From Gammaproteobacteria bacterium (GTDB lineage Bacteria > Pseudomonadota > Gammaproteobacteria > Pseudomonadales > Azotimanducaceae), in contig NZGG01000032.1 of NCBI GenBank assembly GCA_002690865.1, forward strand, positions 1-64,000: a DNA stretch of 64,000 nucleotides, in the 5' to 3' direction. The notes below the pieces were generated by a model. The model made no database searches. It saw nothing but the letters and a program-made list of their open reading frames with translations, and was not told the DNA's origin. Below, piece after piece: positions 1,854 to 15,335 of this stretch (position 1 is its first letter; each line of letters opens with the position of its first letter). The translations under genes and the position numbers were made by a program.

Positions 1854-4116
1854 TGGCAATTTCGGGCTGCTCTATCTCCAATATCAAATCTCCATCCTTT
1901 ACTGTCACCCTTACCACACCACCATTAATAGAAAGTCGTCCAAATAAGATATCTTCAGCTAAATCTTTTTTAATTTTTGTTTGAATAAGACGCTGCATTG
2001 GACGGGCACCCATTGCTTCGTCGTAGCCATTCTCCACTAACCAATCCTTCGCTGAATCGTCAATTTCGAGTATTACTTTTTTATCATCCAATTGTGCCTG
2101 AACTTCGACAAGGAACTTATCCGCAACGCTTTTTATAACCGCTCTCGGCAGGGATTCGAACTGGATGATCGAATCCAAACGATTTCTAAATTCAGGCGTA
2201 AACATCTTCTTCAAAACTTCCATTCCATCCGTTGAATTGTCCTGAGTTTCGAAACCCACTGAACCGCGACTCATCTCTTGGGCACCTGCGTTTGTTGTCA
2301 TCACCAACACAACATGCCTAAAGTCAGCCTGTCGCCCGTTGTTATCCGTGAGCGTTGCATGATCCATTATTTGAAGTAACAAATTAAACACCTCAGGATG
2401 GGCCTTTTCGATCTCATCCAGAAGTAGGATACAGTGAGGTTTCTTTGTTATTGCCTCTGTCAGCAGCCCTCCTTGATCGTATCCAACGTAACCTGGGGGC
2501 GCACCAATTAGACGACTAACTGTATGACGCTCCATGTACTCTGACATGTCGAAACGGACAAGCTCTATGCCCATAATTTTTGCGAGTTGTCTACAAACCT
2601 CCGTCTTCCCCACGCCTGTGGGTCCTGAAAACAAAAAAGACCCAACAGGCTTATCCCCATCTCTCAATCCAGCACGGGATAATTTAATAGCGCTCGCGAG
2701 ATTATCGATCGCCTGATCCTGTCCAAAAATGACCATTTTTAGATCAGAATCGAGGTTGCGCAGAGCCTCTTTGTCCGTTGCCGATACATTAGCTGGTGGG
2801 ATACGTGCAATCTTTGCAACTATCTTCTCAACATCACCGACAGAAATCTGTTTTTTTCGCTTAGAGGCTGGTTGCAACTGCTGGAATGCTCCAACTTCAT
2901 CAATAATATCGATGGCCTTATCGGGCATAAATCGATCATTAATATAACGTTGAGCAAGTTCGGCAGCTACTCTCAGCGCTTTGTCAGTGTACTTCAGCTT
3001 GTGATACTCCTCAAAACGCGTCTTAAGTCCTTTCAAAATCTGGTAGGTGTCATCGACGCTTGGCTCCTCAACATCTACTTTTTGAAACCTACGGGACAAA
3101 GCTCTGTCTTTGTCAAAAATACCTCGATACTCTTGGTAGGTAGTAGATCCGATACAGCGGATTTGCCCCGATGCGAGAAGTGGCTTTAATAGATTTGATG
3201 CATCCATCACACCACCGGAAGCTGCGCCTGCTCCTATTATTGTATGTATTTCATCTATAAAGAGTATCTGGTCCTTATGCTCCTTTAACTCATTGAGAAG
3301 ATTCTTCAGCCTCTTCTCGAAATCACCCCGATATTTAGTACCCGCTAACAGCGCCCCCAAGTCCAACGAATACACTTGAGACCCGCTAATAATTTCAGGA
3401 ACCTGACCATCTACGATCATTTTTGCAAGACCTTCTGCGATCGCTGTCTTTCCAACACCGGATTCACCTACAAGAAGCGGGTTATTTTTCCTGCGCCTCG
3501 AAAGAATCTGCACGACTCGCTCGATCTCCTCTGCTCTGCCGATAAGCGGATCAATCAACCCTCTCTTAGCCTCTACGTTAAGATTAGTAGCATAAGCATC
3601 CAGAGCGCTTTCATGAGATTCCTGTGGCCCTTCTTCGCCCTGAATATTTTCTTGATGCTCTTTATTATCCTCATCGTCCGAAATCCCATGAGAAATATAG
3701 TTAACAACGTCCACACGATTTATACCTTGCTCTTTGAGAAGATATACTGCGTGGCTTTCCTGTTCGCTAAAAACTGCCACTAAAACACCGGCACCACTGA
3801 CTTCTTTTTTCCCTTGAGTTTGCGCATGAAAAATAGCTCTCTGAAGTACTCGCTGGAAGCCTAAGGTAGGCTGCGCATCTCTATTCGTTTCACCTTCTGG
3901 AATAGTTGGTGTCGTTGAATCAAGCATTTCATCCAAATCTAATCTGAGCTTTTCAATATCTGCCCCACAGGCTCTTAGAACCCCTACTGCCGATCCATTA
4001 TCTAACAAAGCCAATAAAAGATGCTCTGAGGTCAAAAATTCATGGCTTTTCTTCGCAGCATCTTTAAACGCAAATCGAAGTGATATATCTAATTCCTTAT
4101 CAAGAAAACTTGCCAC
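1843..4116 (-). CDS. clpA: ATP-dependent Clp protease ATP-binding subunit ClpA
   Basis: ClpA is the hexameric AAA+ unfoldase that feeds substrates, including N-degron proteins brought by ClpS, into ClpP. The 757 residues contain the double Clp N-domain (1-145, where ClpS docks), an acidic linker (about 147-170), the first AAA+ module with Walker A GESGVGKT (217-224), and a second module with GPTGVGKT near residue 500. The ClpP-docking tripeptide appears as VGF, in the segment where E. coli ClpA has IGL. clpS lies directly upstream (9-base gap), so the two form an operon. Its stop overlaps the convergent infA. Confidence 0.97.
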
Positions 4117-13522: not shown

Positions 13523-14208
13523 TTAAAAAAAAATATTGTGAATCTACGAGCCTTAAATGTGAGGGATTAGTATTCGATCTGGATGGCACACTACTTAATA
13601 CTTTGAAAGGTCATGCCCAGTCTTTTAACCGGGCCCTTGAAACATTAAAAATGCCGCGACACCCAATTGATTCCTATCGATATTTCATCGGTAACGGAGC
13701 ACAAATGTGCGCTCGTCGAAGTCTACCTTCAGACTCCCACCACTTAATCGAAGAGTGTGTCAACCTTTTTAAAGATGACTACGCATGTTCTTGGTACGAA
13801 ACGACAGTTCCTTATTTGGGTATCCAAGAGCTGCTTAAAGAATGTTCGGAGCTCAATATAAAATTTTCAGTATTATCAAATAAGGATGATATTTTTACTC
13901 AAGAAATGATCACTAAAAGTTTCCCTAATATAAACTTTGATTATGTTGCTGGTTTTGGACACAGAGAAATTGTAGAACACAAACCTCATCCCTCAGGGCC
14001 AAAACTTATCGCAAACGAACTCGATATCGATATAAACAAATTGGCGATGGTAGGAGATACACCCACTGATATAGAGACAGCGAGGGAAAACTGTATGACC
14101 GCTATTGGAGTGAGTTGGGGTTTCCGAAGTAGAACAGAATTATATGAGGCTGGGGCTTTAGCAGTTGTAAACTCTCCCGAGGAACTATTGAGCCTTATTA
14201 AGTGTTAG
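13519..14208 (+). CDS. HAD-family phosphatase, phosphoglycolate phosphatase-like
   Basis: A class I HAD hydrolase of 229 residues. Motif I is VFDLDGTLLNT (Asp20 nucleophile, Asp22), motif II is FSVLSNKDD, motif III is the Lys in VEHKPHPSGP, and motif IV is AMVGDTPTDIETA. The helical cap domain follows motif I, as in phosphoglycolate phosphatase Gph. Exact substrate cannot be read from sequence; 2-phosphoglycolate is the best guess. It is the third gene of the VWA-DnaJ-HAD operon; the metA leader begins just after it. Confidence 0.85.
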   Translation: MIKKKYCESTSLKCEGLVFDLDGTLLNTLKGHAQSFNRALETLKMPRHPIDSYRYFIGNGAQMCARRSLPSDSHHLIEECVNLFKDDYACSWYETTVPYLGIQELLKECSELNIKFSVLSNKDDIFTQEMITKSFPNINFDYVAGFGHREIVEHKPHPSGPKLIANELDIDINKLAMVGDTPTDIETARENCMTAIGVSWGFRSRTELYEAGALAVVNSPEELLSLIKC

Positions 14209-14217
14209 TGCTTCCTG

Positions 14218-14245
14218 TTGACCGCAAAGGAAAAATGACTAAACT
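14218..14245 (+). promoter_or_regulatory. candidate promoter of the metA riboswitch transcript
   Basis: TTGACC (14218-14223) and TAAACT (14240-14245) are separated by 16 bases. Transcription would start near 14252, immediately before the first helix of the SAM-II aptamer at 14254. The coincidence with the aptamer start supports it, although the -10 element matches consensus at only four of six positions. Confidence 0.5.
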
Positions 14246-14250
14246 AACGC

Positions 14251-14306
14251 GGGAGCGCTGATTTGAGATTCGGCTTGCGGGCGCTATAGAAATGCCGCTA
14301 AAGAAA
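14251..14306 (+). ncRNA. SAM-II riboswitch upstream of metA
   Basis: The segment follows the SAM-II (metA motif) consensus closely. Helix P1 is AGCGC (14254-14258) with GCGCT (14281-14285). The conserved loop start GCGCTGATTT is exact. The pseudoknot is supported by CGGC (14271-14274) with GCCG (14294-14297). The conserved 3' segment appears as AAATGCCGCTAAAGA, matching the consensus ATAAATGnnGCTAAAnA. It lies about 80 bases upstream of metA, the usual target. SAM-II binds S-adenosylmethionine and switches off methionine synthesis genes. The class is known mostly from Alphaproteobacteria. Confidence 0.88.
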
Positions 14307-14324
14307 TTCTGACCTACTTTAGCG
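14296..14324 (+). promoter_or_regulatory. antiterminator helix of the metA leader
   Basis: CGCTAAAG (14296-14303) is perfectly complementary to CTTTAGCG (14317-14324). The left arm is part of the SAM-II pseudoknot region and the right arm is part of the downstream terminator hairpin, so this 8-bp helix is mutually exclusive with both. It gives a simple switch: without SAM the antiterminator forms and metA is transcribed; with SAM the left arm is held in the aptamer and the terminator forms. Confidence 0.7.
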
Positions 14325-14346
14325 CAAGCTCAGTAGGTTTTTTTTT
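14312..14346 (+). terminator. intrinsic terminator (attenuator) in the metA leader
   Basis: ACCTACT (14312-14318) pairs with AGTAGGT (14332-14338). Within the loop AGC-GCAA-GCT (14321-14330) forms a second small stem closed by a GCAA tetraloop. Nine T residues follow (14338-14346). This is a textbook rho-independent terminator placed between the SAM-II aptamer and metA, so it acts as the expression platform of the riboswitch. Confidence 0.9.
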
Positions 14347-14384
14347 ATACGAATGTTGTTGACAATATAGGGGGATTTAAAGCG

Positions 14385-15335
14385 ATGCCAATTAACATTC
14401 CGGACGGTTTGCCTGCAATTGATGTATTACAGCGAGAAAATATTTTTTGTATTACACGCAGTGCCGCAGAACATCAGGACATTAGGCCTTTAAGAATATT
14501 GCTGCTCAATCTGATGCCAAAAAAAATAGAGACGGAAATTCACCTCCTGAGAATGCTTTCAAATACGCCACTACAGGTAGATATCGAGCTAATGCGTATT
14601 AGTGATCGGCCGTCAAAAAACACTCCAATCGAACATATGGAAGCATTTTATAAGGACTTTAATGCCATTCGGGAAGAAAAATATGACGGAATGATAATTA
14701 CCGGCGCGCCCCTCGGCCAAGTAGAACTTAAAGAGGTAAGTTTCTGGAACGCGATGAAAGAAATAATCGATTGGACAACCACAAATGTTACCTCAACAAT
14801 GTTCTTATGCTGGGCAGTTCAAGCTGCGATGCAGCACATTTACGAAGTACCTAAGTATCTTTTACCGAAAAAGATCTCAGGCGTTTACTCGCATAAACTT
14901 ATTCGAAGATTGTCACCTATAGTTCGAGGCTTTGATGATGTTTTTGATGCACCCCATTCCCGCTACGCAGAGGTTCGAAGAGAACATATTCTTGCAACAA
15001 AAAACCTCGTAATTATTGCAGATTCGGACCGCGCAGGTCCTTACATCATCGCCAGCAAAGACGGACGTCAACTCTTCGTCACGGGACATTCAGAGTATGA
15101 ACCCAGTTGTCTTTTAGACGAATATCAAAGGGATATAGCCGCTGGAATCAACCCCGATATCCCAGAAAATTATTTTCCTAATAATGACCCCCGTGAAACA
15201 CCCATCGTTACTTGGAAAAGCCACGGCAACTTATTATTCTCCAACTGGCTAAACTACTACGTGTACCAGCTCACTCCTTTTAAAAATCAGGAAATTGGAC
15301 AAAGAATAAGAGAGGTGCCTGTTAAACTAAGTTGA
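14385..15335 (+). CDS. metA: homoserine O-succinyltransferase
   Basis: MetA acylates homoserine in the first committed step of methionine synthesis. The 316 residues include the catalytic Cys142 (MFLCWAVQAAMQHIY), the active-site His235 (VTGHSEYEP) and a Glu in the same block. Residue 111 is Gly in TGAPLGQVE; in this family Gly111 goes with succinyl-CoA and Glu111 with acetyl-CoA, so succinyltransferase is the better name. The ATG is preceded by AGGGGGA at ten bases. Expression is controlled by the SAM-II/terminator leader. Its 3' end overlaps the convergent SDR gene by nine bases. Confidence 0.95.
   Translation: MPINIPDGLPAIDVLQRENIFCITRSAAEHQDIRPLRILLLNLMPKKIETEIHLLRMLSNTPLQVDIELMRISDRPSKNTPIEHMEAFYKDFNAIREEKYDGMIITGAPLGQVELKEVSFWNAMKEIIDWTTTNVTSTMFLCWAVQAAMQHIYEVPKYLLPKKISGVYSHKLIRRLSPIVRGFDDVFDAPHSRYAEVRREHILATKNLVIIADSDRAGPYIIASKDGRQLFVTGHSEYEPSCLLDEYQRDIAAGINPDIPENYFPNNDPRETPIVTWKSHGNLLFSNWLNYYVYQLTPFKNQEIGQRIREVPVKLS

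Follow-up and report, generated by a model that had tools for sequence, protein, structure and literature searches.

The window, a 64,000-nt stretch of DNA from a gammaproteobacterium of the family Azotimanducaceae, carries metA downstream of a HAD-hydrolase gene, the ORF of which ends at 14208 on the same strand (Table 1). This metA is the only match to TIGR01001 in the genome. Its product scored 470.8 bits against TIGR01001 (succinyl; cut-off, 495) and 443.7 bits against NF047918 (acetyl; cut-off, 460.5), reaching neither cut-off. Since these curated NCBIfam cut-offs were missed, automatic naming may leave the acyl donor of MetA unstated; metA was below the succinyl cut-off in all 11 cases found among 38 genomes (the window's own and its relatives). 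Glycine or glutamate at one position of a MetA motif marks succinyl or acetyl specificity, respectively. TGAPLG is present in the window MetA, as in the Aeromonas row, and in all 11 MetA of the family set described below, and seven of the eight MetA of the group from other classes have TGAP(I/V)E (the pattern is absent from the L167 row). The motif suggests that the window MetA is of the succinyl type.

A sigma-70-like promoter lies in the leader between the two genes. A promoter scan of 1.9 kb returned 8 sites against 4.5 expected, so that the site carries little weight alone; a similar element was seen by eye at the same place in loci L012, L015, L017 and L020. Transcription probably starts near 14252, just before helix P1 of the aptamer. 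A search of the window's genome did not find MetJ, which, according to the excerpted text of PMC4239095, represses metA in response to SAM in several gammaproteobacterial orders; among 14 controls, only Escherichia coli was positive, as expected.

Table 1 Features of the metA leader in the window.
Feature	Position	Strand	Basis
Sigma-70-like promoter (TTGACC, 16 nt, TAAACT)	14218..14245	+	9/12 consensus matches
SAM-II aptamer (P1, GATTTG + GCTTGC loop, core GCTAAAG, weak P2b)	14254..14310	+	RF00521, R1, alignment
P1 5' strand, AGCGCT	14254..14259	+	pairs with 14280-14285 (GGCGCT)
Loop segment GATTTG	14260..14265	+	
Loop segment GCTTGC	14273..14278	+	
P1 3' strand, GGCGCT	14280..14285	+	pairs with 14254-14259
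Antiterminator 5' arm CGCTAAAG, also the conserved aptamer core strand	14296..14303	+	alignment, folding
Conserved core GCTAAAG	14297..14303	+	
Intrinsic terminator (ACCTACT/AGTAGGT stem, inner AGC/GCT, nine T)	14312..14346	+	folding, covariation
Terminator hairpin	14312..14338	+	
Nine T of the terminator	14338..14346	+	
Antiterminator 3' arm CTTTAGCG, within the terminator 5' half	14317..14324	+	alignment, folding
Likely Shine-Dalgarno of metA, AGGGGGA	14369..14375	+	sequence; outside aptamer and terminator
metA, homoserine O-acyltransferase, 316 aa	14385..15335	+	TIGR01001 best model

The initial annotation had read this leader as a SAM-II riboswitch with a transcription attenuator in front of metA, and had made a hit to the Rfam SAM-II model above threshold its touchstone. 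The hit was obtained, at a score under the threshold: RF00521 matched 14245-14322 with 32.2 bits (E 9.8e-6; 301-base search with the threshold lowered) against a gathering score of 36, and the whole window gave zero matches at Rfam gathering scores. Taken literally, this absence refutes the assignment. The apparent refutation was overturned by the lowered-threshold match itself, by the relatives, by the class sample and by the score of R1, a covariance model built from 57 loci of the class Gammaproteobacteria, none from the window's family. R1 matched 14254-14345 with 81.1 bits (E 2.1e-18), the second-best of its three matches in the window reaching 8.9 bits, and leaves little doubt of the SAM-II class. 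The loci of R1 were picked among RF00521 matches having a terminator that contains the complement of the aptamer core, and R1 is thus not independent of RF00521. Several hallmarks of SAM-II were found where the initial annotation had placed them: a P1 helix (six pairs, one U-G) with the conserved GATTTG...GCTTGC loop, GCTAAA at 14297-14302, and a methionine-pathway gene, metA, downstream.

Two strong copies were detected by R1 in the genome, that of the window and one on contig C25 (74.2 bits), which precedes a cystathionine gamma-synthase family gene and has an attenuator of the same kind as the metA leader. The window score lies inside the range of strong matches in the genus (72.5-87.3 bits), from which a weak match, G003:C97:5691-5780 (38.5 bits), stands apart. 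This match and three more in relatives were missed by the Rfam model, namely G007:C17:6955-7043 (72.1 bits), G029:C1:109707-109799 (41.3 bits) and G033:C3:411278-411344 (48.5 bits).

RF00521 matched with E <= 0.001 in 12 of the 38 genomes, including all seven of the genus, and in none of 14 controls; the gathering score was passed in seven of the 38, the window's genome not being among them. metA was present in 11 of the 38, with a SAM-II match directly upstream in every one, which bears out metA as the target, and no RF00521 match was found in any of 14 genomes of the same family lacking metA. Of 369 genomes sampled evenly across the class, 118 matched with E <= 0.001 (controls, 0/14) and 30 passed the Rfam cut-off; the corresponding numbers in a sample of the phylum were 84 and 69 of 398. 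Because 88 of the 118 matching class genomes are also below the cut-off, the sub-threshold score of the window was put down to the cut-off itself rather than to a defect in structure. Occurrence outside Alphaproteobacteria, which the initial annotation had presented as a surprise, proved to be none, with 118 matching genomes in the class sample and earlier records in Corbino et al. (2005), Barrick and Breaker (2007) and Meyer et al. (2009).

Among the best 80 of at least 563 relatives, the nearest named metA loci were those of uncultured Gammaproteobacteria, including K189A and OM182 clade records. The SAM-II core was located just before metA in the top seven of these 80 (L058-L064), with no T-tract within the 60 nt displayed in L063 and L064. 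In the remaining 73 of the 80, some of which have only a few hundred bases upstream, one pattern match was found, in L118 (Yersinia), far downstream of metA; this match looks like chance.

Three sets of loci were compared. The family set (n = 20) comprised the window; 18 further loci, found in its source genome and in 10 additional genomes of the same family; and L027, which belongs to a different family of the order. The other gammaproteobacterial loci were 90 of the 133 class-sample matches outside the window's genome, the weakest being left out, plus five from the phylum sample. The loci of other classes numbered 45 and are presumed to be mostly from Alphaproteobacteria. L028-L057 and L138-L167 were the best scorers of their searches, and the other 65 and 15 were hand-picked down the rankings. 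L174, L195 and L210 (3/95 other gammaproteobacterial loci) and L236 (1/45 of other classes) were dropped, the core pattern being absent at up to one mismatch. The other-class loci belong largely to a few genera, with 35 of their 44 rows distinct, so that counts on this set lack independence.

In the family set, 95.8% of cells were paired in P1, with both-side changes in two of its six pairs; for P1 and the terminator together, 93.4% of cells were paired and seven of 16 pairs had changed on both sides, a value reached by none of 500 shuffles. GCTAAA was invariant across both alignments (the family set and the 57 class loci), for which, however, aptamers had been located by a pattern of three motifs that includes it, with one mismatch allowed in each and rows with more than one mismatch in total excluded. 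P2b is short in gammaproteobacterial loci as aligned here: the run of pairs was 1-4 in 86 of 92 other gammaproteobacterial loci and 0-2 in 15 of 20 family-set loci, and a run of six was seen in 15 of 44 loci of other classes. A scan of P2 column pairs in the gammaproteobacterial sets gave modest signals (best z 4.1 and 3.6, out of the P2b register; in-register pair -3/9, z 3.4).

In the window, the first pair of P2b (-2,8) is a C-A mismatch, and the second, U-A, is retained. The first position is C-G in 103 of the 112 aptamers of the two gammaproteobacterial sets, and the pair forms in 17/20 family-set, 88/92 other gammaproteobacterial and 44/44 other-class loci; by the printed rows, the three C-A exceptions of the family set are the window, L017 and L021. 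The loss of this pair in the window and its closest relative may imply that the aptamer is decayed or weakened and may not respond at physiological SAM, and L017, one of the three exceptions, additionally has GCTAAAT in place of the core GCTAAAG. We consider such decay quite improbable, however, with the remaining conserved positions, the terminator and the 8-bp antiterminator all intact and the R1 score within the genus range. As judged by eye, a shifted helix of three pairs, UUC/GAA, could possibly replace P2b in the window.

The terminator covaries in the family set, with both-side changes in five of ten pairs. A simple terminator scan, whose rule is limited to loops of 3-8 nt, did not report it in the metA leader, probably on account of that limit and of the interruption in this hairpin. 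The antiterminator, formed by CGCTAAAG with CTTTAGCG, is present in the window with its full 8 bp; 91.9% of its cells were paired in the family set, as against 28.8-56.3% when the arms were slid. The helix is mostly invariant, the sole both-side change being in the outermost pair (A-U, C-G, U-A; 6 cells; 6/500 shuffles as high). In 57 other sequences, 84.7% of cells paired, and covariation was not above shuffles (75/500 as high); covariation at the nucleotide just outside the core was weak (73 loci, 30 pairing; 141/2000 shuffles as high). The leader thus has two hairpins that exclude each other, the terminator and an antiterminator sharing a strand with the aptamer; covariation of the antiterminator is weak. 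The attenuator layout put forward initially holds on these grounds and on the presence of both hairpins in the nascent folds described below.

The isolated energies were -12.5 kcal/mol for the terminator (14311-14339) and -8.7 kcal/mol for the antiterminator, and the ensemble energy was -28.0 kcal/mol without constraint as against -22.7 kcal/mol with the antiterminator forced. The terminator is thus the more stable fold, and the switch must therefore be kinetic. When the nascent chain was folded from 14252 in 4-nt steps, minimum-energy structures ending at 14326, 14330 and 14334 contained the antiterminator, and those ending at 14338 or beyond contained the terminator. P1 appeared in these folds only at 14290, 14294, 14326, 14378 and 14382, an alternative hairpin being otherwise favoured, with the pseudoknot and ligand outside the folding model. 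The same holds for the bound state, which was approximated with P1 and the terminator forced and the P2 strands kept free of pairs (ensemble, -21.2 kcal/mol). The energy of the whole-leader fold was not better than that of shuffles (z -1.04; 30/200 at least as good); this minimum-energy fold is uninformative, since it cannot draw the pseudoknot.

The transcriptional regulation of metA is probably as described below. RNA polymerase would start near 14252 and transcribe the aptamer first. When SAM is bound, the core GCUAAAG would be held in the ligand-binding pseudoknot, leaving CUUUAGCG free; the hairpin 14312-14338 would then form before the nine U, and transcription would end after a leader of ca. 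95 nt. When SAM is scarce, CGCUAAAG would pair with CUUUAGCG on its emergence from the polymerase, ahead of the 3' arm of the terminator, and metA would be transcribed. SAM as the ligand and the direction of the switch are what we infer from the class and the arrangement of the parts.

The test motif CTTTRGY (the core complement with G-U allowed, within 90 nt of the core; dinucleotide shuffles as null) was present in 18/20 family-set loci (not in L012 and L027), 55/92 other gammaproteobacterial loci and 1/44 loci of other classes, the shuffle means being 1.15, 4.41 and 1.45, respectively, with maxima of 4 and 10 in the first two. Counting only loci with a recognised terminator (20, 75 and 37), the core complement was inside the terminator 5' half with at least six Watson-Crick pairs in 18/20, 35/75 and 0/37; 40 of the 75 other gammaproteobacterial loci were below the six-pair mark, and 17/92 had no recognised terminator. 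The P2 3' strand was able to serve instead with six pairs in 0/20, 0/75 and 14/37 (2, 1 and 16 at five pairs), and the six-pair counts were unchanged whether or not such pairing was counted as lacking at early-starting terminators. The terminator started within the P2 strand (2 nt slack) in 19/20, 55/75 and 3/37. These counts suggest that the expression platform of the class uses the ligand-binding strand itself, at least in part of the loci, and that some other-class loci use the P2 strand.

Several single loci differ from this arrangement. The terminator of L027 differs in sequence and yet retains TTTAGC. L241 and L244 belong to two genomes of a single family; in each, the core and its complement have both altered (GCTAAACA with TGTTTAGC), a compensatory change of the antiterminator. 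L051 and L197 retain the core complement GCTTTAGC with no T-tract recognised after it. L028, L030 and L032 have SAM-II without a recognised terminator, L028 preceding a sulfhydrylase-type gene, and carry a second AAGCTAAAGA segment shortly upstream of the likely ribosome-binding site, which suggests that they may use another expression platform.

The aptamer could be real and the terminator constitutive, or merely there to end read-through from the HAD-hydrolase gene, with control exerted elsewhere as in Sinorhizobium meliloti metA. The upstream ORF ends just ahead of the leader on the same strand, the terminator is the more stable fold, and there is the precedent of S. meliloti metA, the terminator of which was not predicted to be SAM-responsive, according to the part of PMC9373788 available to us. 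Against these points, the core complement occurs in 18/20 loci of the family set, well beyond its frequency in shuffles, and lies in the terminator 5' half in the same number of loci, upstream of two different genes. Moreover, the likely Shine-Dalgarno sequence is outside the aptamer, which leaves no room for the direct occlusion described for other SAM-II RNAs. A constitutive terminator is accordingly improbable, if somewhat less so than a decayed aptamer. We are highly confident that the leader is a genuine SAM-II riboswitch controlling metA by transcription attenuation. The sub-threshold Rfam score, the C-A mismatch of P2b, the weak antiterminator covariation, the greater stability of the terminator, the rarity of P1 in the nascent folds and the unremarkable fold energy of the leader count against this reading. 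As read from its sequence, it is very probably a working switch and attenuator, ordinary in kind and with a lineage-specific platform.

As the downstream gene of each locus, the longest ORF with a start within 350 nt was used (some in a wrong frame); one was found for 155 of 160 loci, and these were grouped by single linkage. The largest cluster (n = 101) contained 8 family-set, 68 other gammaproteobacterial and 25 other-class loci and includes L009, L028 and L031, checked as enzymes of the cystathionine gamma-synthase/sulfhydrylase type. A metK cluster held eight of the 91 other gammaproteobacterial loci with an ORF (L037, L050, L056, L179, L191, L215, L241 and L244), the assignment as SAM synthetase being checked by a family model for two of the eight, L037 and L241. 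The metF and metN clusters had two loci each, with one checked in each; a MetN-type methionine transporter gene is downstream of the SAM-II match in L027 (gene 2281-3336; 497.1 bits, cut-off 499.7) and L170. The metA cluster comprised 11 family-set, no other gammaproteobacterial and 8 other-class loci.

This last distribution bears on whether metA and its switch were acquired jointly from an alphaproteobacterium: SAM-II is best known in Alphaproteobacteria and precedes metA in 8 of the 45 other-class loci, presumed to be alphaproteobacterial. A tree was made from 54 of the 106 MetA rows (every one of the 11 family-set and 8 other-class rows, and 35 named ones). In it, however, the family-set rows join named gammaproteobacterial MetA, and the eight SAM-II-linked MetA of other classes are separate (support 100/100; midpoint root). 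Transfer of metA from Alphaproteobacteria was rejected on this tree. In addition, the leader fits the class model (81.1 bits) far better than that of Rfam (32.2), and its attenuator is of a kind seen in the class; joint acquisition is thus the least credible of the alternatives, and very improbable. A wider proposal, to which we give even chances of being right or wrong, is that gammaproteobacterial SAM-II may constitute a sub-family, mostly under the Rfam cut-off, in which the core GCUAAAG is itself the antiterminator strand and SAM and antiterminator compete for it, that other-class terminators engage the P2 strand or nothing recognisable, and that the window's family placed this switch before a gammaproteobacterial metA in an event separate from the SAM-II/metA pairing of other classes.

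The literature is cited here from excerpts and, in places, abstracts. The window element resembles SAM_alpha (RF00521), described by Corbino et al. (2005; PMC1273637), in P1, GATTTG with GCTTGC, GCTAAA, a position before a methionine gene and a putative terminator downstream; it differs in scoring under the gathering threshold and in the shorter P2b of the family set. By eye, its P1 is of the GCGC type, whereas those of other classes are mostly CGTGG. The S. meliloti metZ leader (Scheuer et al., 2022; PMC9373788) likewise has an aptamer and a terminator predicted to form on SAM binding, but the core-strand antiterminator of 18/20 family-set loci is found in 0/37 other-class loci, 14/37 of which have the P2 3' strand for this role. 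S. meliloti metA shares a SAM-II leader with the window metA and, unlike it, was predicted to be controlled at translation (PMC9373788). The Sargasso Sea metX switch (2QWY; PMC10907184) is of the same aptamer class and buries the ribosome-binding site in P2, whereas the likely site in the window is outside, after the terminator.

Corbino et al. reported SAM-II from various alphaproteobacteria and, in a few cases, from the Bacteroides group and other proteobacteria; many examples had putative terminators, and aptamers of Agrobacterium tumefaciens showed SAM affinity in the 1-10 micromolar range (PMC1273637). Barrick and Breaker described SAM-II in gammaproteobacteria as sporadic, possibly by transfer, with regulatory terminators mostly in alpha and beta, and called the expression mechanism unestablished in 2007 (PMC2258182); it has since been studied in S. 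meliloti (PMC9373788). Meyer et al. (2009) found SAM-II commonest in Alpha-, Beta- and Gammaproteobacteria. Leyn et al. (2014) recorded SAM_alpha in two alphaproteobacterial lineages, and their Table 1 seems, on an uncertain reading, to give none for gammaproteobacterial groups (PMC4239095). A 2013 survey includes RF00521, lineage detail not being evident in the portion available (PMC3766115), and a 2026 whole-riboswitch covariation study covers, in its excerpted text, other riboswitch classes (PMC13273304). By these reports, SAM-II in gammaproteobacteria and SAM-II with terminators are both already published. In the open-licence literature, mostly judged from titles and the openings of abstracts, we found no paper that describes an antiterminator formed by the core strand as characteristic of gammaproteobacteria, and a search of that literature for OM182 with riboswitch returned no paper.

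Annotation by the Rfam gathering score omits 88 of the 118 matching genomes of the class sample, that is, most candidates. With ligand and antiterminator competing for one strand, the attenuator would offer a simple model of SAM-II transcription control that can be tested by mutation, and the metA leader would put an RNA switch in charge of methionine control in a group of marine gammaproteobacteria, kin of the OM182 and K189A clade records.
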